Origin: Terriglobales bacterium
GTDB taxonomy: Bacteria > Acidobacteriota > Terriglobia > Bryobacterales > Bryobacteraceae
Length of the DNA: 64,000 bases
Assembly (NCBI GenBank): GCA_021372245.1
Contig: JAJFUV010000287.1
Span: forward strand, 1-64,000
Direction: 5' to 3'
The notes under the pieces are model-generated. The model worked only from the letters and a program-made list of their open reading frames with translations, was not told the DNA's origin and did not search any database. This document shows, piece after piece, positions 1 to 60,856 of the stretch (within the stretch, counting starts at the first letter, position 1; each line of letters opens with the position of its first letter). The position numbers were made by a program, and so were the translations under genes.

Positions 1-100
1 AAAACACACGCTTCGCGTATGCCATAATGCGAGGTCCTTCGTGCAAATTCCTCTCCCGGATGGCGAGGATCTCTCCGACAATGTCTCTAGGCTTCGACAT
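1..100 (-). CDS. HEPN-domain protein, 5' fragment cut by window edge
   Basis: The first 33 codons of a gene read leftwards off the window. They are identical to the start of the HEPN-type gene at 58501-59253, so the product is presumably the same ribonuclease-like protein, but the part with the catalytic motif is not in the window. The start codon (complement 98-100) lies 12 bases inside the cassette boundary ACACAAC, as in the complete copy. It is either a second copy of the cassette or a contig end that shares a repeat. Confidence 0.6.
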   Translation of the reverse strand, partial: MSKPRDIVGEILAIRERNLHEGPRIMAYAKRVF

Positions 101-121
101 ATTAATATTTCACACAACGAT
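1..121. repeat. 121-base exact repeat of 59154-59274
   Basis: Bases 1-121 match 59154-59274 without a difference and then diverge. The match contains the first 33 codons of the HEPN gene, its short leader and the cassette boundary ACACAAC, and ends three bases after that boundary. The break falls where integron strand exchange would occur if cassettes point to the minus strand. The match starts at base 1, so its full length is unknown. Confidence 0.95.
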
Positions 122-214
122 CAAGGTCTGGCAACCCAGCCAGCGCCACAGATGCCCGAAAAACAGAAATAAACTCCCACGCTGGCAGGGGTTGCCAGCA
201 CCGACTTGTTATGC
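112..214 (-). other. attC-like recombination site 1
   Basis: This is an imperfect palindrome with outer 7-mers ACACAAC (112-118) and GTTATGC (208-214). The inner arms, near 130-153 and 179-198, pair through GGCAACC. On the minus strand the right arm reads AACAAGTCGGTGCTGGCAAC, the consensus shared by the other sites. GTTATGC reappears inverted as GCATAAC at 522-528, which marks the cassette 208-528. Confidence 0.85.
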
Positions 215-588
215 CTCTTAGAGTTACCATTGAATTGATCCAACGGGGGGACGAATCCCGCAAAAGAAAGCTCGCTGTCGTGGACATCGAGAACGACGGC
301 ACAGCTGGCGACATGCGCGGCGGTGGCGATTTTGGAAACTACCTCGTAAGGGCGTCCGCCGAAATGCAGGGCGGCTTTGATGAGTTCGCAGCCTTCACAA
401 TGGGGCCGCTTAAACGCGGCGACTACATCGACACGGCGATTGATATTCTGGCCGTGATGCACTCCGCGAGGATGCCGCGCCGTGGATTCATCACGGGCCG
501 CGTCGAAGTGGATAATTCTGGGCATAACACGTTATTAACCCACCCATGCCAAACTTCCGAAAACAACGCGATGAACGCAAAAGACTGA
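211..588 (+). CDS. Cassette gene, unknown function
   Basis: I do not recognise the family. The protein (125 aa) is soluble-looking, with a well-mixed acidic/basic composition over residues 1-105. The ATG is part of the cassette core GTTATGC, so there is almost no leader. The cassette ends at 528; the last 20 codons (from Asn-Thr-Leu-Leu) are read from the attI-like sequence and recur at the end of the unrelated cassette gene at 61616-61897, so they are unlikely to be functional. The opposite strand is also open (121-525), but its translation looks like a shadow. Confidence 0.6.
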   Translation: MPLRVTIELIQRGDESRKRKLAVVDIENDGTAGDMRGGGDFGNYLVRASAEMQGGFDEFAAFTMGPLKRGDYIDTAIDILAVMHSARMPRRGFITGRVEVDNSGHNTLLTHPCQTSENNAMNAKD

Positions 589-604
589 GATTCAGCGCGA
601 TGGG
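522..604 (-). other. attI-like site, copy 1, with cassette junction
   Basis: Cassette end GCATAAC (522-528) is followed by a sequence that also follows the other array (61838-61913). Bases 526-604 equal 61835-61913 with a single mismatch. Read on the minus strand the junction is ACGTG^TTATGC, which fits attI-to-cassette strand exchange between G and TT. The site overlaps the first codons of the gene at 546. No integron integrase is adjacent. Confidence 0.7.
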
Positions 605-911
605 GAAGTCATCGCAGCGCGTGCAGGCGGAACGGCGACTGGCGGCCATCACGCCGGAGATGATCCGCGAGGCCGAATCAAATCCGCCGCTCCGGATGGG
701 TGACGCCATCGGATCGCTGCAATGGACGGATTTCCGCACCGGAAAGGTGCAGCGATGGACGGTCCTGCGCGGTGATCGAGTCGATAGAATCATGCTCCAA
801 TCGCCAGACGGACGCCGCTCACGCTCCGCTGGCTGGTCCTTCCTTATGCGCTGCGTCCGCATGGTGATCCTGGGGCATTACTCGTCCCTCAAGCGCCAAC
901 CTTACCGATGA
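546..911 (+). CDS. Small basic phage protein, attI-overlapping paralog A
   Basis: Unknown function, 121 aa, with a very basic N-terminus. It is a paralog of the gene at 61855-62193. The first 20 residues are nearly identical at DNA level because they overlie the attI-like site; after that only scattered motifs agree (GDA-G-LQW-DFR-GKV). It sits where an integron would carry intI but has no recombinase motif (no Arg...His-x-x-Arg...Tyr). It may be a phage gene whose 5' end was co-opted as the insertion site. Confidence 0.7.
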   Translation: MPNFRKQRDERKRLRFSAMGKSSQRVQAERRLAAITPEMIREAESNPPLRMGDAIGSLQWTDFRTGKVQRWTVLRGDRVDRIMLQSPDGRRSRSAGWSFLMRCVRMVILGHYSSLKRQPYR

Positions 912-912
912 C

Positions 913-1272
913 ATGCCGCGAGAAAAGACCAACGACGCTTGGACCGAATACCAAGCCCCATGGGTGGAGGAAACCGACGTGCCATTCGGCTATCGGGTGG
1001 AATCCCGATCCGATCCGGAGTTCGGATTTCACACGGTGGATCTTACCCAGCGCGGCGGCCACGGCGCTTGCACCTGCACCCATTTCCAGATCGTGGCCAA
1101 CCCGAACTTTCGCCGGCACGGGAAGCACATCCCATACGCTCCAAAGCGCCAGGGAGTCAGCGAGTGCGCCCACATCCGTGCAGCCCTTGACCACTATCAC
1201 CAGCACATGACCATACCGATGCTCTCCACCTTCAAAAACGGAATCACGAAAGGAGAACCCAATGCCCGTTGA
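913..1272 (+). CDS. Putative zinc-binding protein, SWIM-like
   Basis: This 119-residue protein has a Cys-Thr-Cys-Thr-His-Phe cluster near the middle and Cys-Ala-His-Ile about 30 residues later. That CxC...CxH spacing is typical of SWIM zinc fingers, which bind DNA or protein partners. It begins two bases after the previous gene and overlaps the next by 11 bases, so it is part of the leftmost small-gene operon. The SWIM assignment is an inference from the motif alone. Confidence 0.65.
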   Translation: MPREKTNDAWTEYQAPWVEETDVPFGYRVESRSDPEFGFHTVDLTQRGGHGACTCTHFQIVANPNFRRHGKHIPYAPKRQGVSECAHIRAALDHYHQHMTIPMLSTFKNGITKGEPNAR

Positions 1273-1600
1273 CTGGAAACGCTACCCTCGCAACTGGCGA
1301 CGCGTCAGCGAACTCATCCTTCGCCGGTCGCAAGGCCGGTGTGAGTGGTGCGGGGCTGAACACGCTCTGCCGCACCCGGTCACCGGCTCGAAGGTGATAC
1401 TAACCACCGCGCACCTTGGCGAGCCGTTCGCCTTGGGTGCCGACAAGCACGACAAGCATGACATCCGGGCAGAAAACCTGGCCGCTCTGTGCCAGCGGTG
1501 CCACCTGCGCCACGATCGAGACGAACACGCCGCCAACGCCCGCAAGACCCGCGAGGCAAAGCGCGAAGCACGAGAACCATCACTGTTCCAGACGCCATGA
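1262..1600 (+). CDS. HNH endonuclease
   Basis: A 112-residue HNH nuclease. A Cys-Glu-Trp-Cys pair (about residues 28-31), a central Ala-His-Leu and a C-terminal Cys-Gln-Arg-Cys-His-Leu-Arg-His-Asp motif form the zinc-bound beta-beta-alpha-metal site. HNH genes next to terminase genes often help DNA packaging in tailed phages, and terS/terL begin 1.1 kb downstream. A free-standing homing role cannot be excluded. Confidence 0.8.
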   Translation: MPVDWKRYPRNWRRVSELILRRSQGRCEWCGAEHALPHPVTGSKVILTTAHLGEPFALGADKHDKHDIRAENLAALCQRCHLRHDRDEHAANARKTREAKREAREPSLFQTP

Positions 1601-1806
1601 GCCGCGCCCCGATCCGCAACTGCGACGAGTGCAAGCACTTCGTCCCCAACCAGGCCACCAAGCACGCCCACTGTGCCCGCGGCCAGAAGCTCCGGTTCAC
1701 CTTCCCCAAGCTCCCCGGCATCCAGGATCCGAAGTCTTGGGGCTACCGCCGGCAGTGCGAACTGTTCCAGAACATCCAACCCGCCAAATCCAATGGACCC
1801 GTTTGA
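1597..1806 (+). CDS. Small cysteine-rich protein
   Basis: 69 residues, starting in an ATGA overlap with the HNH gene. Cysteines at Cys-Asp-Glu-Cys and two further positions (His-Ala-His-Cys, Arg-Gln-Cys) suggest a small zinc-bound fold. The family is unknown. Confidence 0.6.
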   Translation: MSRAPIRNCDECKHFVPNQATKHAHCARGQKLRFTFPKLPGIQDPKSWGYRRQCELFQNIQPAKSNGPV

Positions 1807-2041
1807 ATCCCAACAAGCCATCGAAGCAGAGCGCCAGCGACTCGCCATCCAGCACGAGCAGGATCGCAGGGCACTCTGGCGAAACGTAGCCATCGGCTAC
1901 GCTGCCGCATCCAACTCCACAGACGGATCCGGTATGCACAGATGGGCAAACCGCGCACTCAGCGAATACGACAAGGCATTCCCGAACCCGCCGGGCATCA
2001 CAGCCCTTCCGCCCACTCCTGCACCAGTTCCCCGGCAGTGA
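1793..2041 (+). CDS. Small hypothetical protein
   Basis: 82 residues with a helical, charged N-terminal half (Gln/Glu/Arg rich) and a proline-rich tail. It overlaps the upstream gene by 14 bases. It has no recognisable domain. The chosen ATG (1793) gives a natural composition; the longer upstream reading frame is a shadow. Confidence 0.5.
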   Translation: MDPFESQQAIEAERQRLAIQHEQDRRALWRNVAIGYAAASNSTDGSGMHRWANRALSEYDKAFPNPPGITALPPTPAPVPRQ

Positions 2042-2116
2042 TCCCGCGCGCCTCCGCGGTGCCCTCCACCTTGGCCTTGGTTTCCTCGACCGCATGCCTA
2101 TTACCGTTGTCCAACC

Positions 2117-2668
2117 ATGAAAATCACCAAAGACAAGGCTTCTGCGTTTTGGCAAAAGATCGACAAGGACGGTCCGATGCCAGATCAATCGAACCCCCAT
2201 TACATCGGCTTGAATCGGTGTTGGATTTGGACAGGACGAACCAACCACAATGGTTACGGAAGGATTTCTGTCTCGTTTGATGGAAAACGAATCATGGCCC
2301 GAACCCATCGAATTTCATGGGAGATTCACCACGGAAAGATTCCTGACGGAATGCTCGTGCTGCATCGCTGCGACAACCCTGCATGCGCCAATCCAGATCA
2401 TTTGTTTTTGGGCAGCCACCAAGACAACCAAAATGACTGCACGATCAAAAACCGGAAGAACGGCCGAAGAGGAAAAAGAAGGCCATACGGGCCAAGAGAT
2501 TTCACCGTTCCTCGGGTTTTAACCCAAAATCAGGTTGATGAAATTCGAGCCATGCGGAGAAACTTGAAAGTGTCTTGCTCTGAAATTGCCAAAATTTACG
2601 GGGTATCGAGGGCAATGGTTTGGCTCATTGTGACCGGAAAAGCATGGAAAAGACCTGCGCCCGTTTAA
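2117..2668 (+). CDS. HNH homing-endonuclease-like protein with C-terminal HTH
   Basis: 183 residues. Residues 30-110 match the HNH_3 type of phage homing endonuclease: Cys-Trp-Ile-Trp-Thr-Gly near 35, a HRISW-like helix, and LHRCDNPACANPDHLFLG near 85-103. Residues 135-175 form a helix-turn-helix (a sigma-region-4/resolvase-like recognition helix). The DNA is visibly more A+T rich than its neighbours, as expected for a mobile endonuclease gene inserted between operons just before terS. Confidence 0.8.
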   Translation: MKITKDKASAFWQKIDKDGPMPDQSNPHYIGLNRCWIWTGRTNHNGYGRISVSFDGKRIMARTHRISWEIHHGKIPDGMLVLHRCDNPACANPDHLFLGSHQDNQNDCTIKNRKNGRRGKRRPYGPRDFTVPRVLTQNQVDEIRAMRRNLKVSCSEIAKIYGVSRAMVWLIVTGKAWKRPAPV

Positions 2669-2692
2669 AATCTTGACGGGTTCTGTAAAATC
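2655..2692 (+). promoter_or_regulatory. Phage promoter-like motif 1
   Basis: CTGCGCCCGT (2655-2664), then 20 bases, then GTAAAATC (2685-2692). It overlaps the end of the HNH gene and precedes the terminase operon. It is one of seven copies of the same two-part motif in the window. Confidence 0.6.
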
Positions 2693-2707
2693 AGAGGACG
2701 CCGACAG

Positions 2708-3217
2708 GTGAACAACCGTCCATGCCTCATGAAAACGAAACCGAAGCCACCGACCAAAAAAGCCCGAACGTCCACCAAAGCGCCGAAGCGGGAACGGAAG
2801 CTATCGGTGCGGCAGGAAAGGTTCTGCGAGTTGATTGCCGCGGGGAAAAGCGGGCCTGATGCCTGGCTGGAAGCGGGATACCAAGTGAAGAATCGAGACG
2901 TGGCAAAAGCCAATGCCTGCGAAGCCCTTACGAATCCTTACATAGAGGCCCGAGTGGCTGAACTTCGCAAGCCGCAGACCAAGAAAACCCTCTCATCGCG
3001 CGATCACAAGCGACTTTTGGCGATGCAACTGATGGAAGATCCCCGGCAGAAAACTCAAGACCGGCTTCGCGCCATGGAGATCGACGCCCGCCTTGCCGGC
3101 CAGTTCGAGCCCGACCGGACAGAGATCGAGGTGGGGCCGAAAACCCTGCTGTCCATCAAAGAGCGGGCCGCCCAGGTGGCCAGCGCACTGATCCGCAGCT
3201 ACGAAACCGATTCATGA
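2708..3217 (+). CDS. terS: Terminase small subunit
   Basis: 169 residues. It carries a basic Pro/Lys-rich N-terminus, then a helix-turn-helix part typical of Terminase_2-type small subunits (RQERFCELIAAGKSGPDAWL, near residues 36-55; later TNPYIEARVAEL). The protein recognises phage DNA for packaging. It directly precedes and overlaps terL (ATGA). The start is GTG at 2708; an in-frame ATG at 2729 would remove seven residues and is equally possible. Confidence 0.85.
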   Translation: MNNRPCLMKTKPKPPTKKARTSTKAPKRERKLSVRQERFCELIAAGKSGPDAWLEAGYQVKNRDVAKANACEALTNPYIEARVAELRKPQTKKTLSSRDHKRLLAMQLMEDPRQKTQDRLRAMEIDARLAGQFEPDRTEIEVGPKTLLSIKERAAQVASALIRSYETDS

Positions 3218-5040
3218 GCGCCGTTCCGGAAATCGTGCGGAAGTTCTCCGACATGCTGGCCACCAGCACCCAAGACAAACTTGAAGCGCTGGCCTACAAT
3301 TCGCCGGCGACTCACTTCTGCCTTTTCATGGAGATCAAGGACAAGAACGGCCGATGGATCAGGCCAAAGCCGAACGTCCTTCAACTCCGCATATCCGAAA
3401 CAATCGAAACGATCCGGGCGAAATGCCCAGGCACCCGGATCCGGATCATCGCCGTGAAGCCCCGCCGGGCCGGTCTGTCCACGTTCTCCCTGCATTGCGG
3501 CTACCACGAGGCCATGCGCCGGCCAATCGAGGGCATCACGATTGCCGACCGACGGGAGAACTCCCAAATGCTCATCGAGCGACTGGGCGAGTATTCCACG
3601 CATGACAGTTTCCCATGGGAAAACCGGGTGATCCGGAACGCGCAAGGCATCTTCGAGTGGGACAACGGCAGCCGGTGGACCATCGATTCCGCGGAAAACC
3701 CGGACGCTGGTGTGGGCGGCACCCGCCACTTCGGCCATTTCTCGGAGTGTTCGAAGTATCCGCAGACGGCCATCAAGAACGACGTGAAGACGATGACGGC
3801 CGCCCTGCCGTCGTTCTCGGGATCGGATACCATCTGCATCGCGGAGAGCACGCCAGAGGGGGCCGCAGGCTGGTTCTACGGCACGTTTGACGAGGAAGCG
3901 ATGTGGCTGGATGACTTCCTGAAACGCTACGCAGAGGGATTCCGCCCGGAACAGCAGTGGATCAAGGTGTTCGCCGCCTGGTGGGAGTTTGACGACTACC
4001 GCCGGCAAAACCCGGTCAGCGAGGCGGAGCGGGCGGAAATCGACGCCACGCTGTCCGACTTGGAGCGTGAAGAGCGGGAGAAGTTCGGCCTGACCTATGA
4101 GCAACTGGCGTGGCGGCGGGAAACCATCGCCTCCGAGTGCGATGGCGATCCGCGGATCTTCGCCTACTACTACCCGAGCGACCCGATTTCCTGCTGGATC
4201 GCCTCGGGCACGCCGCGCTTTGACATGCAGATCCTTGCCGACATGAAGAAGAAGGCCAAGGACGTGACGCCCGACACGGGCTATCTGGTCACCCAGCACA
4301 ATGGAGTGGTAACCTGGTCCCGCGATGAACGCGGGGCGGGGGAAATCCTGATGTTCGAGGAACCGCGCGAGGGCATGGCCTACATCGTGGCCTGCGACCC
4401 GGCCACCGGGGAAAGCCAGACAATGGGAGCGGACCCGGACAGGACATCGATCGCGGTGTGGCGGCAGAAGTTCTTCGATCCGGACCTGAAACTTGCCCGG
4501 TGCGCCAAGCTGGTGGCTCGAGTACGCCCGCCCTTCACCGGGGATGACGACATTGCCGCGGGCCACATCGCGCGCCTCTCGAAGTTCTACGGCGGGTGCA
4601 TGATCGCCCTGGAAGTGAACCAAGGGTTGCAAGTCCTGCGCTGCCTGCTGGACGCCAGCCTGCCGATTTACAAGCGCATCGTGTTCAGCCATAAGACCAA
4701 CGCGAAGGAAGAACAATACGGATTCAAACTCACCGACCAGAATCAGCGCCGGATGGTGATCGATGGCCTGGCCGCGGCGATCCGCAACCGGGAGATCGAG
4801 CCCGATTTCCACACGATCGAGGAACTGATGAAATTCGTGCGGAAGCCAAACGGCCGATACGAGGCGGCCAGCGGGGCTCACGATGACGACGTGATGCAAG
4901 CCGCGATGGCCTGGGAAGTCCTGCCCTCGGCCACGGTGTTCGCCCGGAAGGTGCGCCGGGACGTGGACCCGACCGACATGGCGACCGGCAACCGGAAACA
5001 GGGCTGGCGAGTAGTCTCGAACGTGCGCCGCGGGTGGTGA
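3214..5040 (+). CDS. terL: Terminase large subunit
   Basis: 608 residues; the packaging ATPase and nuclease. The ATPase P-loop variant is AVKPRRAGLST (about 80-90), followed by the typical phage GYHEAM helix. The nuclease half has YIVACDPATGES with a DPDRTSIAVW strand (from about 389), EVNQG near 467 and a final AHDDDVMQAAMAW near 556, which together give the acidic metal-binding set of the RNase-H-like fold. It overlaps terS by four bases. The gene after it is the giant ORF rather than the portal. Confidence 0.92.
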   Translation: MSAVPEIVRKFSDMLATSTQDKLEALAYNSPATHFCLFMEIKDKNGRWIRPKPNVLQLRISETIETIRAKCPGTRIRIIAVKPRRAGLSTFSLHCGYHEAMRRPIEGITIADRRENSQMLIERLGEYSTHDSFPWENRVIRNAQGIFEWDNGSRWTIDSAENPDAGVGGTRHFGHFSECSKYPQTAIKNDVKTMTAALPSFSGSDTICIAESTPEGAAGWFYGTFDEEAMWLDDFLKRYAEGFRPEQQWIKVFAAWWEFDDYRRQNPVSEAERAEIDATLSDLEREEREKFGLTYEQLAWRRETIASECDGDPRIFAYYYPSDPISCWIASGTPRFDMQILADMKKKAKDVTPDTGYLVTQHNGVVTWSRDERGAGEILMFEEPREGMAYIVACDPATGESQTMGADPDRTSIAVWRQKFFDPDLKLARCAKLVARVRPPFTGDDDIAAGHIARLSKFYGGCMIALEVNQGLQVLRCLLDASLPIYKRIVFSHKTNAKEEQYGFKLTDQNQRRMVIDGLAAAIRNREIEPDFHTIEELMKFVRKPNGRYEAASGAHDDDVMQAAMAWEVLPSATVFARKVRRDVDPTDMATGNRKQGWRVVSNVRRGW

Positions 5041-5133: not shown

Positions 5134-8100
5134 ATGTCTTCCCGATTCCGCCGCAGCGATCCCGAAGCCGAAGTTCAAGCCTACCTCGATGAAGTCCGCG
5201 CCGGGCGCGCTGGACAAGATCCGCGGGCGCAAACTCTGGCCCGTTCCCAATCCCCAAGAGCCCAAAAGACCGGCCAGCGCATGCTGGACGATCGAGCGGA
5301 CGCCAACCTCCGGCAGATCGAGGACGACCAGCGCGCCGCCGATCAAGCCGCGGAGGATGCCGCCAAGGCTCAGGAACAGGCCGCCAAGGACGCCGCGAAA
5401 GCCATGGAGGACGAGCGCAAGCGCAACGTGCGCGCCATGGCGGCCCAGGGTGCCGTGGTCGAGACGGACGTGGAGAGCGGCAAGCGGACGATCGCCACGC
5501 ATGCGGATGGTGCGCCGAAGTTCGAGGCTGGCCCCCTCGGGCGCGTCGAGCCCGTGGCCGAAGTGCGCCCCACCTTGGTGGACGGGGAAACCGGTGAGAA
5601 GCGCACGGTGCCAAACCTCGACATCATGATGGGCGGCGGTGCCGGATCGGACGCCATCGGCGCGACCGGATCGGAGAAACAAACCGTGTTTGGGCAGCAG
5701 GTGCGGGATGACCGTGGCCGGGTTTCCATCGTGGAGCCGAAGATCGAGACCGACAAGGACACCGGCCGGCAGACCTTCGACCAGAAGAACCCGGTGACCG
5801 GGAAAACGGAAACGCAGACGGTCGGCTACGATTGGGACGCCCGCGAGAAAGCCGCCCGTGCCGCCAAGATCGATGCCGACACGCAGGCGGTGGCGCTTGA
5901 AATCAACGCCCTTGACCAGCAGCGCGCACAGTTCGAGCCCCGTTGGCAGCCGGTGAAGGCGGAATACCTCAAGGCTAAGAGCGAGTTGGAATCACTCCCC
6001 TCCCCGCTGATTCAGCGCGGTTCCACCTGGGTGAAGGTGGACGAGCGCACCGGCAAGGAATCGCTGGCCACGCCGCAAGAAATCGCCTACCAAAAGAAGG
6101 TCCGCGAGCAGGCCCAAGCCCGATTCGAGCGTGCCAAGGCTGCGTATGAGCCGCTGGCCGGACAAAACGAGACGCTGACCAAGGCGGAGCGCGATGCGAC
6201 CGCCCGCCGGCTCCAAGTGGGCGAGGAAAAGATCCGCCTCGAAGCCGGACTGCCCGACAAGGACGCGGAAACACTCACGCGAGCGCTGGCCGTGCAGACG
6301 GAAGCCGTGCCGGATCCGGAGGCGGAAGCGGTAAAGCAAGCCGTGGCACCACCGGCCGCCCCTGCCGCGCCAACCAGTGGCCAAGCTGCCGCGCCGCCGG
6401 CAAAGCCACTGGTCCCGAAGGACGCGCTCAACGCCGACACCTTCGCCGCGGCATTCTCCGGCATCGTGAAGCCTGAAAGCCTCACGCTCGGGCTGTCCGG
6501 TGACGGATACCGGATGATCCAGCGCAACGGCACCACGATCGGCAGCATCGAGGATTCCGGCGGCGCTCCGGTGGTGGTCCTCAACGCCGGCCTGAACGAA
6601 GACCTGCGCGCCGTGGCCGCCCTTGGGGGCACCAAAGGCGTGCCGGTGTATCTGGCCGATGGCAACCGTCAGCCGCTCGCCAAGGAAGCCGCGTGGGCAA
6701 CGCAGGCGATCCAGCAGGCCCAACAGGCGGAACAAGCCGCGGGTTACTCGTTCACCGACCGCATGAACGCGCGGGAAGCGGCGCTGCAACTGGCCGGTGC
6801 CGACCTGCCGACGATCAACCGCAAGCTGCGTTCCGGCGAGATTTCCATGCAGGTGGCCGAAACACTGGCCAAAACGCTGCACGGCGAGACGTTCCAAGTG
6901 GCCGATCCCCTCGCCCCGGAGTCCTTCCAAGGCTGGCAGGCGGAGAATCCCGACAAGGCGGAAGCGTGGAGCAAGGCGCAAGCCTCGCGCGACATCCAAG
7001 GAATGAACGCTGTCAAATCGGCGTTCATTTCCGATTGGTATGCCAAGAACCAGCACAAGCCCGGCGTCACCTGGTCGATGATGCAGGCCGCGCGCAAGGC
7101 TGCCGCAGTGACCGGGACGGCCGGCGACCGTGCGGCCGATGGCGTGAAGACGCTCGGCGGCACCCTCGTGGACGCTGGCGGCTCCATGATTGGCCTGATG
7201 GCCGCCTATCCCACCCTTGCCGGCATGGGCGCTGCGGTGATGGCGCAAGACGTGTTCGGGAGCGGCTCTGACGGTGACCTCGGCGTGGCGTATCGGGACA
7301 TGCTCGAAGCCCGCGGCCGCGCGAACAAGAACTTCGTCCGCGGACTGGAGACCAATCGGCAGAAGTGGTTCACCGGCGAGGGCAAGAAAGCCACGGGGAA
7401 CCTACAAGCCGCCCTATTCGACTTCCGCGCCGCGGTGGCCACCCGCGACGTGTATCCGGACGGCATCGCGGATCCCCGCTATCAGGCCAAGTTCAACAAG
7501 GCGCTTGGCAAGGTGACCGATGCAGCTCACGCCCTGCACTCGCTCAACCTGGAAGACGGGTGGGCGATGACCCGTGATGACGTGGACCCGAACAAGGACC
7601 GGGTGCTTGGCGCTTCCCTGGCCAACTACATCGAGACCGGCGATCCGGAGGCATTCCAGCAGTTCCAGCGCCGTCTGCTTCTCGACAAGGGCAGCCGCGA
7701 GGCGGAAGGATGGAATCAGGACTTGGTGGCCGGGCAGGGCCGATTCGCCGCGGCGGTCATCGGTGGTGTGGCGGCCAATGACTTCGAAAGCGTGATCGAG
7801 ATTGCATCGAACCTCGCCACCGCGGGAGTTGCCAAGGCGATCCAGACCGGAGGGAAGATGGTTTCCGCCTCGAAGTTGGCCGGTGCCGGGCGCGTGGCGC
7901 GCTTCGGGCAGCAAGTGGCCAAGGACTTCCACAAGCTCGGCATGGTGGCCGACACGCTGGCGAAGCCGGCGAGCAAAGGCGGGAAGATCCTCAACCAGTC
8001 GGTGAAGCTGGGGAAAGCGACATTGGCGCAAGGTCTCAGCGAGGGAGCGGAAGGCGGCGTGGCGGAACTCGGAAACCCGGAAGCCACGGGTGCCAGTGTT

Positions 8101-11100
8101 CTTGAGGCTGCCGCCATCGAGGGACTGGCTGGGATCGTGATGGGTCCGATCATGTCCGGCCCCACCATGGCCGCGGCACAATCCCGCCAGAACTTCGACA
8201 TCGCCGCCCAGGCGCAAAAGCTGGTCGATGCCTACAACAAGACCGGCGCGAACGATCCGGATTTCAAGCCGATCACCCGCGATCAGGCGATTGTGGCCAT
8301 GGAAATGGCACAGAACCCGGCGCGCAAGGAAGCGCTCGACCGCCTCGAAGCGGCCAAGGTGGAACTCGAACTGGCCAACAACGAATTGGCCGGCACCGGC
8401 GCAAAGCTCGCCAGCGTGCGCCGCGAGGGGCAGGAAGCCGCGGCAGCCGTCCCCGGCGACCAGAACGCCGACACCACCGCTCGCGCGGATGCGCTCAAGG
8501 CATGGCAGGAGGACAACGCCCGCCAAGAGCAAGCCGCCCAGGCTGGGAAGCAAAACGCCGCCTCTCGCTACTCGAAGGCGCTTGCCGCCTACACGTCGGC
8601 ATTCCGTGATGTCGCCAACATTCAGGGATCGGCCATGGAAATCGCGGCGTCCACCGCCGGCATGAGTCCCGCGGAGCGCGCCCAGGTGATCGGGCTGGCC
8701 AAGGTGGCATTCGGCAAAGCTGACACGCTCACCAGCACCGAGCGGAGCGCCATCGCGGGCAAGACCACGATCGAGGGGCTGCCCTACTTCGAGACGACCG
8801 CCAGCGGCACCGAAGTGTTGACGGACGCCGGCCGGGCCGACATCCAGCGCCTATTCCCGGTTCTCGGTGGAAAGATCGCCACCCCGCAAAGCCTCGCGCT
8901 GTTCGAGGCTGCCAGACAATCACCCGCAGCCACGGGCGCGCCGACAGCATCGCTACCTGCCGGACAGGGGGGCGCGCAAGCGCCCTCCACACCCTCACCA
9001 ACCACCGCACCCAATGGGCAAAACACGCAAGGACCAACCGGACAACAAACCGCTGCCACGACTGCACAACCCGCACCCGCCAACGCGAACGCACCGGGTG
9101 GAACTGTTCGAGATGGAGCCGGACAGGCCGACCCCGCAAATGGAGCCGGAGAACAGGCCGCGCCGTCGCCGGTAAGCGGAAGCGCCGCGGCCATGGATGC
9201 CGCCGAATACGCCGCGCTCCGGGCTCAAGACCCATCCTTGCCCGACATTCCCGCGGTGGTGGCTGCCGCCCGCGCCGCCGGCCAGCCGGTTTCCCCGTCG
9301 ATGGAAAAGGCTGCCGGACAAACCGTTTCCGGAAACGGACAACCGGTGTCCCAAACGGACCGGTTATCGCCTGCCCGCCAACTGGCGGAACAGATCAAAG
9401 CGCGCGTCGAGGCCGCCATGCCGTCGATGAAAGGCCGGATCGTGGTTTCCGAGGAAGCCAGCGGAGGGGGCGGCGCTGACCTGGTGATCGAGACCGGGCA
9501 AATTCGCCTCATGGTGCCGGATGTGGCGCGAGCGCTCGAAAAGCTCGGCGGCGACACCGCGGCGGCCATGGAGTCGCTGGAAAACATCGTCGCGCGGCAT
9601 GAAGTCGTTCACGTCGTCCAGACCGACCTGATTCGCGCGGAATGGGAAGCGGCCAACCGGCCCGGATCGTTCTCGGATTTCTTCATCCAGTGGTATGCCG
9701 ACCTCGCGCCGGAACTGCTGACCAAGGATGCGGTGAAGGCGGCGCGCACGCTCTACGGGGAAAATGCGTGGGATCGGATCCCAACCGATGGCCAGAAGAC
9801 TGCGGAGTTCGTGCGGATGCTGGTGGAAGCCAAGCTGGAAGGCGACACGTCGAAATTCTCGGAACTCTTCCGCGCGGTGAAGACCCGCGGTGCGAAGTCG
9901 AAGCTCGCCAAGCTGATGCAGGCGGCGATTGCAGCGCTCCGCAAGATGAAGCTCACCCCGGCGGCCGAAGCGCACGTTTCGCGCCTCGTGGAACTCCACC
10001 GGGAACTGACGGAAGGCGCTCCACAGGATACTGCGAATCCAGCAGAATCACCACAAGCGGCGGCAACTGGCCTGCGCGTCCAAGCCACCGGCAACACCGC
10101 CCGCATCTTCGACGGCGAAACCCTGCTTTGGGAAGGTCCGGCCGATCAGGCACAAGCGGAACTCGCCAGCCTCAAGGCCGCGCAATCCTCGCCCATGGTT
10201 CTCACCGGGGCCGCGATCAAAGCCGCCATCGAGCGATTCCCCAGGCTGCGCGGGAAACTCCGTGCCGACCTTGAGGCCGCCGCGGATGACGTGATCGACG
10301 CCATCGAGGCACTGCCTCCCGAAGAGCGCGCCGCCGCCGCGGAAAAGGCGATTGCCGACCGGATCAACCTGATTGCCGATCGGGAAGCCGAGCGCACCGG
10401 CAAGGCCCGCGAGGAAGTGATCGAGGGATTCCGCGCCGTGGCCGGCAAGCGCGCCGCCAAGCAGGCAGCCAGCATCGAGCAAGCGGTGATCGGCACCGAA
10501 GCACCGCAGGTGCCCGCCGGACGCCAAGAGCGCCGCGACACGCCCAATTCCGAAATGACGGTTGATGTCACGTCAACCTTCGTTGACCTCGATCAACTCA
10601 TCGGCTCGTCCGATCCCCTGTTCCCAGGTGGGGCGCTCCAACCGCGCAACCGCGCCAGCCAAGCCAGCGCCAACCAGCGGGAAGAAATGGTGCAGAACAT
10701 CCGCGACAAGGACGATCAGCACCGGCGATACCTCGAAGGGGCAACCACGGATTCCGGCCGGATCGTCGTCGCGCCGCTGTTCGCCGCGGACGGCACCCAC
10801 ATGACCAATGACGCGGGCAAGCCGCTGTTCTACGTCATTTCCGGCAACGGCAGGCGCAATGCGCTGCAAGAAGCCTCCGCGCGCAAGGTGGCCGGCAAGA
10901 TCGACAAGGGATTCCGCGAGACCGCCGCGGCCGAAGGCATCGACACCGAAGGGATGACGCTGCCGGTGCCCGTGTCCGTCTTCGTGCCCACCAGCGCCAA
11001 GGAGGCGATCGATCTGGCCGAATACTCCAACCGTGACGCGCAACTGTCCGTCTCGAACACCGAACAGGCCAACCGGGACGCCGCCAGCATCGAAAAGGCC

Positions 11101-14100
11101 GGGATTCTCAAGCTGTGGGAACCGGACGCCAGCGGAGACCCCGGCGCGGCATCCAACCGGGATTTCGTCCGCGCCTTCGCCCGCGCGGTCGGTGACGAGG
11201 GGATCGTGGACGGTCGCGGAAACCTCACCGAAGAAGGCGGAAAGCGGATCGAGCGGGCCATGGTGGCGATGCTGCTCGGCCCGGAACAAGCTGACCTACT
11301 GGACATCCTTTTCAACCAGTCCGGCACCTACGGGCTGCGCGCCATCCTTGGCGGGATCGCCTCGGAGACCGGATCACTGCTCAAGGTAGCGTCGGAAAAG
11401 CCCGATTTCGACCTGTCCCCGGTGTTGGCTGATGCGCTCCGCACCGCGGTTCAGGCCAAGGCGGCACTCGTGGCCGGCGAGATCCGCGACGTGGGCGAGT
11501 TCTTCGACCAAGGGAATCTCTTCGAGTCCACCGACAACAGCACGCCGGAGCGGCAACTTGCCCGCGCCCTGGTGGAAAGCCGCAGCCGGAAAGCCGTGCG
11601 CGAAATCCTCGGAGCCTACCGCCGCGGCGCGGAAGCCGTGGACACCGGCACCATGTCGATGTTTGCGGAGGCGGAGACCACCCGCGAGGATCTGATCTTG
11701 AAAGCCCTCGAAGCGCGACCCATCGAGCAAGTGGCCGCGGAAGTCGAAGCGGAGTTTGGCAGCAAGTCGGACCTCGCGCGCAAGCTCAACCTAGCCGTGG
11801 CCGGGGTGAAGAAGCTGGATGCCGGCCAACGGCGCGATTTTGTGGCCGCCATCGGCGCGGAAGTCGAGCGCCTGCGCGGCGGCATCTACTCCGCCGAAGA
11901 GTGGCAGCGCCTCAATCCGGACGCCCTCACGCCCAAGGCGGCGCTCTTCCAGCGCTTCTTGGACTCGCACACGCCGGAGACCATCCAAAGCGGCTTGAAC
12001 CGCCTGCTGTCCAAGCCCGCGCAAACGGTGCTGGCGTCGAGCGCTCTCGGTTCTCACCGGTTCTCCGAATATCTCGAAGCCGCCAAGTCTCTCCTGCGCG
12101 AGAAACTGCCGGCGGAGCCCGCGGGGCTCAAGGACGTGCCCAAGATTTCGATTTCCCCGGCAGAACTCGCCCGCCAAGTGGCCGGACTGACCAAGGACAC
12201 CATGCTTGGCATCGGCAATCGCCGCGCGGTCCTCGGGTCTTCGCCATTCGAGGATCCCCGCCTCACCGAAGTCTTTGGCGAGAACTACAAGGCCGACGAA
12301 TACGGGCTGCCTGCCATTCCGAAAACCCTGCCGGACGGTCACCCGCTTTTGCAGCAAACCGACAAGAAGGAGTTTGCGGAAATCGCGGAGAATCACCCGC
12401 TGGTCATTGGCATGGACCCGCGCAACGAACTGGTGCGGGATCTGCCGGAGGATCACCCGGCGCGCCTCGGTGGATTCCTCAAGCCGGGCAAAATGCCGCG
12501 CAAGCAGTTCCATGATGCGGTCATCAAGTTCTTCATGAGCCTCGGCACCCCTTTGCCGGACGGAGTTCGCCCGACCGTTTACGCCACCGGCGGCGGCGGT
12601 GGGGCCGGCAAGTCGAGTATCCTGAGATACCTCAAGGAACGCGGCGACCTGGACACCACCGGGGCGATCCCCGTCAACGCCGACGAAATCAAGAGCATGA
12701 TTCCCGAGTGGGATCTGTTCATCCAAGCCAAGGACGGCCGGGCCGCCGGCGTGGTTCACGAGGAATCCAGCATTCTCGCCAAGCGACTGGTGGAAACCAT
12801 CCTCAACAACGGCTGGCGCTACTCGTTCATCTACGATGCCACCTTGGCGAACACGGAGAAAGCCATTGGCATGTTCGGCAAATGGAGGAACAACGGGTAT
12901 TTCGTCCACCTGATCGGCGTGAGCATCGATCCGCGCGAGGCGATCATTCGCGCCATTCTCCGCGGCCGGAAATCATGGCGATGGGTGCCGGTCGAGGAAC
13001 TCACCAAAGCGCATGCAGGATTCAACCGCGGCGTGATGGCGCTGGCCAAGGCCGCCCATTTTGTAAACATCTTCGACAACACCCCGCCGAAGCCTCATGA
13101 AATTGCCAAAAAAATCGGGGACAAAGAGCAGATTTCTATTGTAAATCAGGAGTATTTTGGCAGGATTCAATCGCGTGAAAGACAAATCCAACCCCAATCG
13201 GATGGCCAATCTGAAACCCTTCCCGGCGGATTGGCGCGCCAAGATCCAGAAAGATCAGGACGCGACCGACCAAGCGGTGATCGAGCGGGCGCACAAGTCC
13301 AACCTCAAGGTCGATCCGCCGATCAAACGCTAGGTTCCTCCCCTGCCCCGGAACTCGACCTGTTCGGGGCCATCGAGGCGCAAATCACCGGCCCGCGCGC
13401 CAAGACCAAGCGCAATGCGCTGGCAGCCGCCAAGGCCCAGCCGGAAGGCAGCAAGGCCCGCGAGAACATCGGCAAGCGCGTGGCCGCGATCGAAGGGCTG
13501 GCCGACCTCGACCTGTTCGCCGCTGCCTCTGTCCGCAGCCTTGACGCCAAGCCGAAGAAGAGCGAGAGTGCGCCAGATGGAAGCGCTCCAAGACAGCCAG
13601 GCAATCCGCTCGATCCTCAGCTACATGGAGGACAGCCAGCCAAGGGCACTCGTGGCGCTGGCACAGTCGGGGGAAATCAAGACCTATTTGACTGGTCTGG
13701 CCGACCAGGTGCAGAAGCAGGCGGAACGTCTCGCCAACCAGCCGCATCCGATGTTCAAGGGACGGACGCTGGGCTACGAGGAAGCGGAGATGGAAGCGCT
13801 GCAACAAATCCTGACCTCGGAGGAAGAGGATCCGGACCCGGACGACCTGCGGAAAGCGGTGAAGGTGGCGGATCGGATTCGGGAAATGCTGGACGCGACG
13901 GCGGAAAACGCAGCCTGACGCAGCGCCAGCGGCCGAAAGCCGGCACGCCGGAGCGCAACTTCGAGATCACGCCCAACACGGTCCTTGCCGAAGGCGGCGC
14001 TGTTACCCGCATTCGCAACAACGTGGCGGCCATCGACCTGCTGCGCACGCTGGAACGCGAGGATCGCAACGCCACCGCGGAAGAAAAAGCCGTGCTGGCC

Positions 14101-17100
14101 AAGTTCGTTGGCTGGGGCGGCCTGCCGCAAGTCTTCGATGAAGAGAACGCCCGCAAGGTGGAGCAAGGCGAAGCCGAAACCCGCCGCGAGACTGCCCGGC
14201 GCTACGAAAGCTATGGCGCGCAATACGAGAACCTGCGCGCGTCCTACCGGGAACAGGCCGACGCCATCGACAAGTGGAACGAGAAATGGGGCGACCATTA
14301 CCGCAAGCTGCGTGAACTGCTCACCCCGGAAGAATGGGAAAGCGCCCGCGAGTCGATCATCAACGCGCACTACACCAGCCCCACGGTGATTTCCAGCATG
14401 TGGGACGCTGTGCGCCGCTTGGGATTCAAGGGCGGCAACGTGCTCGAACCGGCCGGCGGCATCGGTCACTTCTACGGGCTCATGCCGCAGGACATGATGG
14501 ACACATCCCGCCTGTTTGGCATCGAGTTGGACAGCGTTTCCGGCCGGATCATGGGCAAGCTTTACCCGGAAGCGGAAATGGAGATCACCGGGTTCCAAGA
14601 CAGCACGCTGCCGGACAACTCGCAGGATCTCGTCATTTCCAACGTGCCGTTCGCCAACATCAACGTCACCGACGAATGGCTGGCCGCCCAGCCGGACGCG
14701 CCGGCGTTCAACCTGCACAACTACTTCTTCGAGCGGGCGCTTCGCAAGACCCGTCCCGGCGGGCTGGTGGCATTCATCAGCACGGCCAACACGATGGACG
14801 CCCAAATCAAGCAGCGGAAGTGGCTGGCGGAGCGGTCGGACTTCATGGGGGCCATCCGCCTGCCGAACAATGCTTTCAAGGGCAACGCCAACACCGAAGT
14901 CGTCACCGACATCATTTTCCTGCGCAAGCCGGACGGGTCGCCCAATCCGATGGCCGCGGAACAGTGGACTTCCACCGAGGATGTGGCGCTCGACAACGGC
15001 GAGACCATCGACATCAACGAGTATTTCGCCCGCCACCCGGAAATGATCCTTGGTCGCCTGGCCAACGATGGCAGCATGTATGGCGGCAAGAAGGAAATGA
15101 CCGTCCACGGTTCCGGCGATCTGAAAGCGCAACTGGCCGAAGCAGTCGCCAAGTTGCCGGAGAACGTCATCGGCGGTGGTGAAGCGGTGGACATCGAGCG
15201 GGACAGCAAACAGGCCGCAGGAGCCAAGGATGGCGCATTCATCGAGGAAAACGGCAAGGTACGCATCAAGGGCGATCTTGACCCGGTGCCGACCAAGGAA
15301 CTCGGGCGCGTGCGCTCGTTCATCAAGCTGCGCGACACGCTCAATGAACTCTACCGCCTCGAAGCGGACCCCGCCGCCACCGACTCGCAGATTGCGGCCC
15401 AGCGGGCGGCGCTGAACCGGGCCTATGACGGCCACAAGGCGGTCTATGGCACGCTGCACGAGCGGGCCAACAAGAAGACCCTCGAAACGGACCCGGATTT
15501 CTACCGCACCCTTGGGCTGGAAGTGCCGCTTGAGAAAAAGGCGCTGCGCAAGCAGGAATACCGCAAGGCGGATGTGTTCTCGAAGCGCATCCTATCGCCG
15601 CGGGTGCCGCCGAAGTCGGCCGATTCCGTGGATGAGGCCGTCATCCATTCGTTCCGCTGGAAAGGGCGATTGGATGCTGGATACGTCGGCAAACTTCTCG
15701 GCATCCCGCTGGAAGCCGCGGAATCCCGCCTGCTGGAAACCACAGCCGCTTTCCGTGATCCAGCCAGCGGCCGGATCGAGCACGCCACCAATTACTTGGC
15801 CGGCAACGTGCGCCGCAAGCTGCGCGATGCCCAGCAAGCCGCCGCCGGTGATCCCGCCTACCAACGCAACGTCGAGGCGCTGGAACGGGTGATGCCGCCG
15901 CCGGTGCCGTGGAGCGACATCCATTTCAAGATGGGCTCCGCGTGGATTCCAGCCGATGTCTATGAACGATTCATGGCGGAAAAGCTCTTCAACGGCCGCC
16001 GCAATGCCCGCGTGCTCTATCACAAGGGGGTTGGTGATCTGATTGGGGATTCCTTCGAGGTTCAGCAAGGCGTCACCGGCTACTCCAACAGCGTGGATGT
16101 CCAGTGGGGCACGCCGCGCCTGAGCGCCACGCAGATCGTGGAATACGTCCTCAACCAGAAAGACCCGCGGGTGTATGACACCGTGGACAAGAAGCGTGTT
16201 TACAACCAGGCGGAAAGCGACAAGGCACGCGCCGCGGCGGAGCGCATGACGGAAGCCTTCCTTGAATGGGTGAGCGCTTCCCCGGAACTGCAAACCGACC
16301 TGCACCGGATCTACAACGAGTCGTTCAACTCCCATGTGGTCCCGCAATACGACGGCAGTTTCATGCAGTTGCCATGGGTGGCCAGTGACTTCGATCTCTA
16401 CCCGGACAAGAAACACGTCGTCTGGCGCGCGCTGCAAGAAGGCACGCTGCTGGTCGCGCACGGTGTCGGCGGCGGCAAGACCATCATCGGCACGGCCATT
16501 GCCATGGAATCGCGCCGCCTCGGGCTGGCCAAGAAACCGCTGATCGTGGTCCACAATGCCACGCTCGAACAGTTCGCCACCACCATTTCCACCATGGCAC
16601 CCACCGCCCGCGTGCTGGTGGCCCGCAAGGAGGATCTGGCCGGACCCAAGCGCAAGGAGTTCATGGGCCGTGTGCGCTCCGGGGATTGGGATGCCGTGGT
16701 GATGGCGCATTCCACCTATGACCTGATCCCGGATGATCCGGCATGGGAGCGAAAACAGACCGATGACCTGGTGAAAGAACTGGAGGACGCCATCCGCGAG
16801 CAAGACGTGGATCCGGATGCCGACCTGAAAAAGATCAAAGACCCCTCGGTCAAGGAACTGGTCAAGATGCGCCGCCGACTCAAGGACCGCATCGCCAACC
16901 TGCAAACCCGCCGCACCGATGACGTGTTGACCTTCCAGGAACTCGGCATCGATGCCCTGATCGTGGACGAGGTTCACCGCTACAAGAAACTGCCGTTCGT
17001 CACCCGTCAAAGCAACATTGCCGGCATCGACACCGGATTCTCGAAGCGCGGCAGTGCAATGCAGCTTCGCGCCAAGTGGGTGCAGGCGATCAACCAGGGC

Positions 17101-20100
17101 CGCGGCGTCTTCACCATGACCGGCACGCCAGTGACCAACACCGTGGGCGAGGCATGGAACATGGTGCGCCTCGTCCGGCCGGACTTGCTGCAAGAGTTCG
17201 GGGTGAAAACCTTCGACCGCTTTGTCTCGGTCTTCGGCAACATCACCCAGGGCGGTGAACTGCGGCCGAATGGCTCGTGGAAAGCCGTCACCCGCCTGAG
17301 CAAGTTCACGAACATTCCGGAATGGAATCGGTTTTGGGGACTGGCTGCCGACGTGAAGATGGGTGATGACATGCAAGTGAAGGGCCGGCCCAAGATCAAA
17401 GGTGGCAAGCCTGCCCTCACCGTGGTCGAGCGCACGCCAGGTGTGGGCGCGGTCATTGCGGAGATTTCCCGCGTGATCGATTCATACGACATGATGACCG
17501 GCCGGGAAAAGGCCATGAACCGGCATATCCCGCTGCTCACCTACGCCGCGGCGAGGATGGCGGCCATCGACATCCGCCTGATCAATCCGGACGCCGCCGA
17601 CGAGCCGACCAGCAAGGTCAACACCGCCCTCAAAAACGTGATGCGTCTCTACCACGAGACCACCGAGCACAAGGGAACGCAGGTGCTCTTTGCGGACTCG
17701 TATCGCCCGCTCAAGACGACCAAGCTGGACCTGAGCGCCGCGGAGTTCGACATGATCGCGGACGATGAGACCGCTCCCGCCAAGGATGACGAAGACGAGG
17801 GGTTCAACCTGTATCACGACATCCGCGAGAAACTGGTCGCCGCCGGCGTGCCACGCTCGGAAATCGCCATCATCACCGAGGCCAAGAACGACAAGGCGCG
17901 CGAAGCCATCTTCGCCAAGGTCAACTCCGGCGAGGTCCGGATCATCCTCGGCTCCACCGAAACGCTCGGCACCGGCGTGAACATGCAGCAACGCATGATC
18001 GCCGCCCACCATCTTGACGTGCCGTGGACGCCCGCGGGGCTCGAACAGCGGGACGGCCGCGTTTATCGCCAAGGCAACCTGTGGGCGGAACTCGGCCGCG
18101 AAATCGAGATCATGCGCTACGGCATGAAGGACACGCTCGACGCCGCCCTCTGGCAGAAGCTCGAAACCAAGGAGCGCTTCATCAAGCAGGCGGTTTCCGG
18201 CAAGATCAACGAGCGGGTGATCGAAGACGACGACGGACTGCTCAACTACATGGAGCAAAAGGCTGCGCTGTCCGGTCCGGATGGCATGCTCAAATTCACC
18301 CTGGATGAAAAGGTCCGCGGGCTGAAAAACGAGTGGCGCGCCCACCGCAACCGCCAGTTCGACCTGCAACGCACCGGCGATCTTGCCAGCCGCACCATTC
18401 AGTCCATCGATGATGCGCTGGCGGATGCCCGTCGCGTGGCCAAGGTGGCGGAGCCGCTGGCCAACGTCGATCCCATGGAAGTGGAATGGTCCGTCGAGGG
18501 CGGCAAGGCGCTGAAAGGCGAGGATGCCCGCGAGGCCATCGATGCCGCCATCAAGGAGCGCCGCAAGAAAGCTGGCGCGATCATGAACCCGGAAAGCGCG
18601 CCCACCATGCGCGAGCCCCTGCACGTCACGGCCAACGGTGTTCCGCTTGTGCTGCAAGTGGTGTCCATCACCGAGGACATCGCCCACGCCAACAACCCGG
18701 ATCTCCGCTGGCAATTCACTTGGGCACCCACGCTGGAGACCGCGATGAAGAATCCCGGACGGCACAGCCCGCACCCGCGGAGCCTCATGGGCGAGTCGGT
18801 GGCACTGGCAACCCGCTTGTTCACCCAGCCTGCATCCCTCGAAGCCAACCGCAGCCGGGCGCAAAGCGACATCGAAATGGTGGCCAAGGAAGGGGCAAAA
18901 CCGTTTGGCAAGGCGGTGGATTTCGCCCAGGCGCTGCTCGATCAGGCCAAGCTCTACAAGCGCATGGGCATCGCCAGCCCGGAGGCGCAAGACGTGTATC
19001 AGGCCGCTTTCGGCGCGGAGTGGGAAAGCCAACTGAAAGCCGCGGAGAATCCGGACACGCCGCCGCCCAGCGGTCCCCGCGCCGAAACCCCGGAGACCTA
19101 CCCCGGCAAAGGACTTGCGCCCGCCATGGCGACTTTGGGAAGCTCTGCGGGTCTTGACTCCCGTGGTAATCCTCAAGGCATCGACACCAACCAGCCCGGC
19201 GGGGCCAATATCGGTGACGCGGCCTCGCCGTCTTCCGTCGTCACTCCTGAAATGGATGCGGCGTATCTCGATGCGCTGGCAAATGGAAATTTGTATGAAG
19301 CTAACGCTATAATGTTGGAAGCCGCTGGCAAAGCTGGGGCTTTTTCGTGGGATGATGGAACCCCAAAGGTGCTTCTACACGGAACGGTGTATGAATACGA
19401 CGTTTCTGAGATAAACTTGGAAAATGCAGGTCAAGGGCATCCAGCAAGCACAGGAGAAAATCTGCTGTTTATGACGCTCGATGGCGGAGAGGCTGCAAAA
19501 TATGCCGGGTATGAGAATTTTAACGAATTGGAAGATCTTTATGACGCTTGGAATGACGGCCTTGCAGAAACGCAACCTTCGGAATTGAAAGAATACTACC
19601 AAGGCGAAGAAGGCAGAGTGTTTCCATTGTTCGTCTTTCCAAAAAAATTAAGAACTCTGCCAGGAAAAAATGGGAAATACAACTTCGTAAGATTGAACGG
19701 TCTAGCAGAAAAATTGATAAGCTCAGGAAGGGCTGATGCTATTTTGATGAAAGATACAGTTGTGACATACTTAGGGCAAAATCCGGCAGATCACATGGTT
19801 GTCGGAAATGTCAATTTAGTAAGATCCGCCGCAACTGTTTTAAGAGACGAATCCGGAAACATCATTCTGCTTTCCCAACGTTTTAACCAGTCCCCCGGGG
19901 CATCTTCCCCGGAGAGCATGTCGCTGGGAAGCTCCCCCACCCCCGACGCCGACCCGGTGCAAACATCTTTCGTCCGCGCCATCGCCACCGCCCGCCGCGA
20001 ACTCGACAAACGCCGCGCGGATCGCAACACCGTATCCATTCAATGGGAACTGGATGCAGACCGCTTGGCCGAAGACGGCGAAGAATATCACTACCCGTCA

Positions 20101-54826: not shown

Positions 54827-55455
54827 ACTCAAAATCCGCACTCCAAGCGCTCGATGAACTGATCAAAGCCGCTCCTGATACTCCGGCCATGGAAGCCGAT
54901 CCCAAGAAGACTTTCGCCGCACAAACCGGCGTCCCTGATCGCTACCGGTCCAAATGGCCGTTTCCGCAAGACCTGGAATGGTTGGGGCGGATGGAAAAAA
55001 TCAAAGGGCAAACGCATCACGGCGGAATGGCTGTGCTGATCGGACCACGAGGCACAGGCAAGACCAGACTGGCGGCCGAAGCGATGCGCTACCACCCGTG
55101 CGACGGCATCCTGCTCTATGCGCGATACACCACTGCGATGGGGCTCTTCCTCCGCCTCCGCGCCACCTATGGCGGGCAATCGGAAGAATCGGAAAACGAC
55201 ATCGTGGAAGCAATGGCGACTGCGCCGATCCTGACGATTGACGAGATTCAAGAGCGAGGCCACACGGCATGGGAAGACCGACTGCTGACCCACATCATCG
55301 ACCGCCGATATGGGGCGATGCTGCCAACGATCCTGATCGCCAACCTCACCATTGCGTCCCTGGCGGAATGCCTTGGGGAATCGATTGTCTCCCGCATCCA
55401 AGAGACCGGCGGGATCATCCGTGTTGAAGGACAATCGCACCGCCGCGGCGCATGA
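54823..55455 (+). CDS. DnaC-like helicase loader ATPase
   Basis: 210 residues. P-loop LIGPRGTGKTRLAAEAM (about 72-88), Walker B PILTIDEIQERGHTAWEDRL, and a later sensor strand TILIANLTIASLAECLGESI are as in DnaC/IstB-type AAA+ loaders. It sits between initiator and DnaB, overlapping both by four bases. Confidence 0.85.
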   Translation: MNSKSALQALDELIKAAPDTPAMEADPKKTFAAQTGVPDRYRSKWPFPQDLEWLGRMEKIKGQTHHGGMAVLIGPRGTGKTRLAAEAMRYHPCDGILLYARYTTAMGLFLRLRATYGGQSEESENDIVEAMATAPILTIDEIQERGHTAWEDRLLTHIIDRRYGAMLPTILIANLTIASLAECLGESIVSRIQETGGIIRVEGQSHRRGA

Positions 55456-58046: not shown

Positions 58047-58083
58047 GACGCTGGTATCCGTTGCGTCTCACGACTTGTTAGCC
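57983..58083 (-). other. attC-like site 3
   Basis: TGAGAAC (57983) and GTTAGCC (58077). The inner arms ACGGATACCAGCGTC and GACGCTGGTATCCGT pair perfectly over 15 bases; the minus-strand right arm has one extra A (GCAACGG against GCACGG). Confidence 0.85.
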
Positions 58084-58093
58084 TCTTCTATTT

Positions 58094-58441
58094 ATGACAA
58101 CGACCGAACTCACCAAATGGCTCCGCGAAAATTCGTCTGGAGCGTATCGCCCTGCCGCTGAAGCTGCCGATCTTATCGACGATCTAGTGAAGAGATTCAC
58201 AAAGTTCGACAAGCCGAAATACTCAGGTGACTCGATGCTGGATGCGGTCCTTGGAACCCCGAACGCGGACTTCCGCACTTGGGTGGATTCGCTGCCGCCG
58301 TCGTATTGGGCGCGATACGATCTCAGTGCTGCTCGGATCGGATGGGAAGCCGCGTTCAAATTCATTCAGGCTAACGTAAAGCGCATGCACCCCTACCAGC
58401 GAGAGCGGAAGGGTAATACACCGGAAGGAAACGAATTATGA
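58094..58441 (+). CDS. Cassette gene, phage-type hypothetical protein
   Basis: 115 residues. It has helical segments and SYWARYDLSAARIGWEAAFK, a phrase common in small phage accessory proteins of the Ea22 kind. It starts 17 bases after GTT, and the last 21 residues come from attC-like site 4. No function known. Confidence 0.6.
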   Translation: MTTTELTKWLRENSSGAYRPAAEAADLIDDLVKRFTKFDKPKYSGDSMLDAVLGTPNADFRTWVDSLPPSYWARYDLSAARIGWEAAFKFIQANVKRMHPYQRERKGNTPEGNEL

Positions 58442-58496
58442 GTGATCGTCGAAACAGAACGGCTGATAGGGGTTGTCATGGCGCGACTTGTTGTGT
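58369..58496 (-). other. attC-like site 4
   Basis: GGCTAAC (58369) and GTTGTGT (58490). The arms ATGCACCCCTACCAGC and GCTGATAGGGGTTGTCAT pair with one bulge. The loop is similar in sequence to that of site 5 (shared GATCRTCGAAACAGAACGGC), so these two attC sites are recent relatives. Confidence 0.85.
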
Positions 58497-58500
58497 GTCT

Positions 58501-59253: not shown

Positions 59254-59274
59254 ATTAATATTTCACACAACGAT
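59154..59274. repeat. Second copy of the 121-base repeat at window start
   Basis: Identical to bases 1-121. It covers the start of the HEPN gene and the cassette boundary, and ends three bases into attC-like site 5. Confidence 0.95.
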
Positions 59275-59391
59275 GAGCACATCCACCACTACCAGCGGGA
59301 GCGAGTGGCGGAAACACAGGAAGGGGGCGAGTCATGAAAGATCATCGAAACAGAACGGCTGGTAGTGGTTGGATGATGCGGCTTGTTCGCT
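59265..59391 (-). other. attC-like site 5
   Basis: ACACAAC (59265) and GTTCGCT (59385). Arms CATCCACCACTACCAGC and GCTGGTAGTGGTTGGATG pair with a single bulged base on the right arm. The loop is shared with site 4. Confidence 0.88.
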
Positions 59392-59411
59392 TTCTTGTTT
59401 CTTTGTGCGAC

Positions 59412-59948: not shown

Positions 59949-59959
59949 CTTAATTTTCT

Positions 59960-60849: not shown

Positions 60850-60856
60850 GGTTGCC

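Follow-up and report, generated by a model that had tools for sequence, protein, structure and literature searches.

Candidate attI sites fixed before a small phage gene and apart from an integrase gene

Introduction
Integrons and clusters of attC sites are carried by phages as well as by bacteria. Qi et al. (2023, PMC9892861) surveyed 10,705 NCBI phage genomes and, in the accessible parts of that work, describe attC cassettes in phages that often lack intI, DNA methyltransferases among the cargo, and an IntI1 assay in which five of six tested phage attC recombined with attI1. Those same parts contain no dedicated attI before a non-integrase phage gene, and in the open-access literature we found no description of such an attI or of two such sites per phage. 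The locus analyzed here was contained in a window of 64,000 nucleotides, positions 1-64000 of a 64,767-bp contig. The contig carries genes for a terminase (3214-5040) and a DnaB-like helicase (55452-56888) and is therefore a phage. A single open frame of 6341 codons (5134-24159, plus strand) probably encodes a giant phage protein. With the phages surveyed by Qi et al. this contig and its relatives share attC cassettes, often without intI, and DNA methyltransferase cargo. Thus, phage integrons and attC clusters as such are already known (PMC9892861). What appears to be new is a putative attI without intI beside it, located at a fixed position ahead of a small phage gene and found twice in one genome.

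Results
An initial annotation had noticed that positions 526-604 and 61835-61913 are equal with one mismatch and that the match begins exactly at an AAC. Comparison of the window with itself reproduced this and extended the shared block to 526-625 and 61835-61934, which are 96% identical over 100 bp. As the annotation had also stated, the block lies in the 5' ends of two paralogous plus-strand genes, gp546 (546-911, 121 aa) and gp61855 (61855-62193, 112 aa), whose products are 54% identical; in gp546 it covers a homogenised 5' end. The block starts with an attI-like core at 526-545 (minus strand) that is repeated exactly at 61835-61854 (minus strand). On the plus strand the first core reads AA|CACGTTATTAACCCACCC, placing the crossover between 527 and 528, or AATAACGTG|TT in minus-strand reading; in the second core the crossover is between 61836 and 61837. 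A 24-mer of the block occurs at these two places only, even with three mismatches allowed (0 in 100 shuffles), and there are no further block copies elsewhere in the 6.36-Mb assembly. An exact 19-mer found no match in the viral collection; the relatives carry small changes and were found via the protein.

Left of each AAC the window carries unrelated cassettes, ending in GCATAAC and GTCGAAC as annotated, and both turned out to be complete units with matching attC cores. The cassette docked at the first core spans 118-527 (minus strand, GTTATGC at the attC), with its attC at 111-214 (minus strand, hairpin z -4.1, model score 60.2 bits). Adjacent to it is the end of a second cassette (1-117, minus strand) that is cut by the contig end and identical to 59154-59270; identity of the copies extends over 1-121 and 59154-59274 and stops four bases past the crossover. 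The second array (57665-61836) holds about nine cassettes between the replication genes, including the DnaB-like helicase, and the second core. All of its listed features are on the minus strand. Its leftmost detected attC is at 57658-57750 (52.1 bits), followed by attC sites at 57982-58083 (hairpin z -5.9, 62.0 bits), at 60333-60466, with a perfect 34-bp inverted repeat (arms 60332-60365 and 60435-60468), and at 60761-60849 (78.8 bits). The cassette docked at the second core (61425-61836, GTTCGAC at the attC) has its attC at 61418-61505 (63.3 bits), a hairpin with one unpaired T. No convincing Rfam match was obtained for the arrays, and a tRNA-like stretch near 58540-58600 was discarded since ARAGORN finds no tRNA there.

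On the plus strand each unit is laid out as C-attC-gene-RYYYAA. In all nine window units tested, the tetranucleotide that follows GTT in the attC complements the end of the same unit, as would follow from a circular origin of each unit. Averaged over 117 units of the window and its relatives, 3.43 of four bases are complementary, compared to 1.77 +/- 0.08 (maximum 2.03) in shuffles and only 1.95 when the end of the unit before is used. In 50 of 52 sites the attC hairpin has an unpaired T at the same fixed position, and this base together with the unit boundaries identifies the conventional top strand as the minus strand of the window. At one threshold, a scanner reports ten attC in the window arrays and not a single one in the other 54 kb, both strands included; these counts are partly circular since it was trained on sites from these same loci. 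No attC were found elsewhere in the assembly, and a covariance model, trained partly on window sites, matches this contig only. Some window attC fold just modestly better than shuffled sequences (z -1.2 and -1.5). The arrays thus consist of attC cassettes with matching R'' and R' cores, as in a complete integron, and the contig, with about ten attC and no intI, falls under the definition of a CALIN (at least two attC without intI). Seven bases ahead of AAC, 47 of 52 attC junctions and 17 of 18 attI junctions share a T, and at cassette ends of the window and related loci the other core is often followed by TCTT.

Homologues of gp546 were found in 21 viral contigs (loci are given L numbers below), and both window cores are kept before such homologues in about 20 of them. 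Wherever the contig is readable, AAC-A(C/A)G... precedes the start codon by about 20 nt and the sequence to its left is unrelated. The alignment of the block in relatives proposed by the annotation, looking for different cassettes at one position, yielded 18 non-redundant junctions, in which column identity between pairs averages 0.28 to the left of AAC (composition alone would give 0.25) versus 0.83 over the first 12 bases of the conserved side. The near-identical phage pairs L034/L036 and L037/L038 diverge exactly at AAC: the former are about 98.6% identical right of it with 99% in the left flanks, the latter 95.6% with 96%, and the arrays in between differ. Single cassettes also recur. In L025, 3809-4098 equals 11027-11316, and a cassette at the attI of L047 (5708-5983) lies inside the array of L048 (1584-1859, 95.7%). 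Cassettes that recur in different phages end at AA|C. An attC array abuts AAC in almost all contigs with enough sequence, which contradicts the reading, held by the annotation to be fatal to its proposal, of a conserved gene start that never borders cassettes. L031 has a second exact 46-bp attI copy inside its own array. Two gp546-like genes, each after AACAAGTTGATATCCTAAC and with different left sides, occur in genome G238 of the Luteolibacter phylum (L104, L105), and in L050 a second attC run (18-3370, minus strand) is oriented opposite to the attI of the same contig.

How much of the block is conserved as DNA was judged from synonymous sites. Across the gp546 family, codons 2-28 show synonymous differences of 0.44 versus 0.58 in the C-terminal part, and non-synonymous differences of 0.06 versus 0.14. 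Most of the block is therefore kept as protein, and a DNA-conserved attI of the whole 76-100 bp was rejected, given that synonymous sites of codons 2-28 vary nearly like the rest. The annotated 76-base block is supported as a docking site, but the minimal site is shorter, and the conserved non-coding core of the putative attI measures about 20-25 bp across the wider family. Between the two window copies the 5' end differs unusually little (synonymous differences 0.22 in codons 2-28, 0.85 in the C-terminal part), a sign of recent homogenisation there. A structure model of the family, made on gp61855, has one long N-terminal helix and a small beta-beta-beta-alpha domain, and no significant match to solved structures was found for this fold. 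L047, L048 and L050 have gp546 cut to 33-37 residues with attI and the first codons kept.

These data bear on the possibility that the block is just a conserved gene start and that the arrays to its left are swapped by homologous recombination anchored in the gene and the left flank. Conservation of the 5' coding part as protein (pN 0.06) would suit this idea, and so would the homogenised 5' ends of the window copies and of L032/L047 that stop near codon 28; the latter indicate that homologous exchange probably occurs here too. However, the breakpoints fall at AAC in the junctions examined, and single cassettes recur with AA|C boundaries and self-complementary ends. The non-coding 20 bp before the gene are kept even where the N-terminal protein sequence is not conserved (L041-L046). 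We therefore disfavour homologous swapping as the explanation and regard it as improbable. Relatives' junctions, abutting attC arrays and cassette switches at AAC rather support what the annotation had suggested, repeated cassette insertion at a fixed attI.

No integron integrase is encoded on the 64.8-kb contig and none over the family cut-off in the assembly, so that no intI lies next to the candidate attI here. The C195 candidate for a host-encoded IntI is XerD, and the other candidates match only weakly. Integrase genes are present in the relatives L017/L021-L025, L094 and L095. P0001 of L017 matches TIGR02249 with 260.3 bits, just under the cut-off of 265 but with a wide margin over all Xer models. 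Among solved structures its closest relative is 2a3v, which was deposited as IntI4, an integron integrase; the alignment runs across KYP...WHFLFPS. By this profile ranking ahead of Xer-type models and by the extra IntI region, the predicted protein is an integron integrase. The L017/L021 phages encode a terminase 62% identical to that of the window, and their intI is located between the array and a homologue of the window gene at 913-1272, hence in the place of gp546. This bears out the remark that integrons normally carry intI at this site. The attI of L017, AAC(C/G)ACTGATTCAACC (also given as AAC(C/G)ACTGATTCAACCGC), borders different cassettes in related viral loci, and attI of this kind do so in Luteolibacter marinus and Haloferula luteola loci as well; next to more distant phage integrases the corresponding position reads AAC..TGATTA. 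The gp546-type (AACACGTTATTA) and intI-type (AACCACTGATTC) attI are loosely alike, thus one enzyme need not use both. Among 24 related viral records only one has a strong IntI-like match (G020, 193 bits, below cut-off), but because these records are fragments, missing intI genes are weak evidence. Judging from the integrase-bearing relatives, the window phage likely infects Verrucomicrobiota, and the bin may just happen to include a viral contig.

With no intI adjoining the block, and with non-classical attG targets of IntI being established (PMC12901181), the block might alternatively be a fortuitous secondary target that was later copied by gene duplication, with no dedicated attI involved. 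Against this, about 20 phages keep the site at a constant distance from the gene, attC arrays lie beside it in nearly all that have enough sequence, and a Luteolibacter-phylum genome has two similar sites of its own. The block therefore looks like a maintained site, and we give a fortuitous target little credence.

In L021 one single array is flanked by DnaB and gp57150, which are found left of the second window array, and by gp908 and terminase, found right of the first. Since both flank sets surround this one array, the two window loci probably derive from one, either by duplication of attI-gp546 or by insertion of the intervening segment. That they are two variants of one locus joined by faulty assembly or binning is hardly credible: the contig does start inside a cassette repeated at 59154-59274 and the bin is 5.28% contaminated, however, the flanks are wholly different (gp908, HNH and terminase after the first block, a RecE-like exonuclease after the second) and two exact attI copies are likewise present in a further phage, L031.

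Judged by codon usage, the phage strand encodes 102 of 117 cassettes and the opposite strand 6, with 9 unclear, hence most genes are antisense to the canonical cassette direction. A first count by ORF length (62 versus 53) had suggested mixed directions and was replaced by these values. The codon-usage score let ORFs run past the junction and was wrong on the SieB cassette, assigned to the minus strand by Pfam. This cassette (59271-59965, minus strand) has a core match and contains a SieB superinfection-exclusion gene (59412-59948, minus strand; PF14163, E 4.9e-30) that keeps the canonical direction, unlike most of its neighbours. The adjacent cassette common to both arrays (58375-59270, minus strand) has a 250 aa ORF on the minus strand (58501-59253), probably canonical as well. 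Pfam hits on 82 cassette proteins include N6/N4 and Dam methylases, Mom, HNH, GNAT and an Acb2/Tad1 hairpin protein. The cargo thus comprises SieB in the window and Mom, DNA methylases and Acb2/Tad1 in relatives, some of it with anti-defence functions. The ORF of cassette 118-527 (211-588, plus strand) ends inside the attI block; this ORF and the one at 61598-61897 (plus strand) lack a stop of their own and run into the block with the common tail NTLLTHPCQ(T/A)SENNAMNAKD, and the attI of relatives gives cassette ORFs a short tail such as NTLL or NTLLDRP.

Discussion
We consider it very probable that the shared block begins with an attI, that cassettes insert there via their attC and that this attI is not beside intI in this phage lineage. 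The attI insertion site is recognized by comparison only, as a fixed junction with variable cassettes, and it is again comparison between sequenced loci that reveals the docking site with its crossover position as well as the cassette units and how they turn over. In the proposed mechanism attI would be a fixed double-stranded docking site into which an integron integrase inserts circular cassettes via folded attC hairpins. Crossover at G|TT on the minus strand (AA|C on the plus strand) would put each new cassette directly left of AAC, 20 nt before the small conserved phage gene gp546, with two such sites in this phage, each closing its own array. IntI would act in trans and might be supplied by the host, by another phage or by a part of this phage that lies outside the available sequence. 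Because most cassette genes lie on the phage coding strand, read-through from phage genes may express them. As the majority of cassette ORFs point toward attI, a Pc promoter directed away from it could not serve them. More tentatively, such integrons could be split: widespread phages would keep one or two attI before gp546 as ports for a shared, anti-defence-rich cassette pool, with the integrase in trans and gp546 possibly accessory. This broader idea is conceivable, and we hold it as rather less likely than not to be correct.

If the interpretation of the block as attI is correct, some phages run integrons of their own that are not host debris, and a fixed port allows swaps of single genes among related phages, among them genes for superinfection exclusion (SieB) and DNA modification (Mom, Dam, N6/N4 methylases) and anti-defence genes of the Acb2/Tad1 type. 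Since attI and intI are normally sought together, separated attI sites may have been missed. The system would also offer a direct test of cassette-pool sharing among viruses.

Compared to known systems, the integrases of the integron-carrying phages P1, Shewanella M16-3 and the Vibrio anguillarum phages are 32-37% identical to those of this clade. The crossover G|TT is shared with class 1 and class 2 mobile integrons, and the window core AATAACGTG|TT is similar to that of attI2, AATAAAATG|TT (as cited in PMC12901181). The internal attI copy of L031 has a parallel in the delta-attI cassettes that class 1 and 2 integrons carry (PMC12901181). Unlike in these integrons, the window has no adjacent intI, its cassette genes are mostly antisense and the site lies directly before a phage gene. 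An atypical relative orientation of intI and cassette genes has likewise been described for the chromosomal integrons of Treponema (PMC3607928). However, in Treponema intI is transcribed toward attI, in cassette direction (PMC3607928), whereas in the phage clade any intI that is present has the usual direction away from attI and it is the cassette ORFs that are reversed relative to attC.
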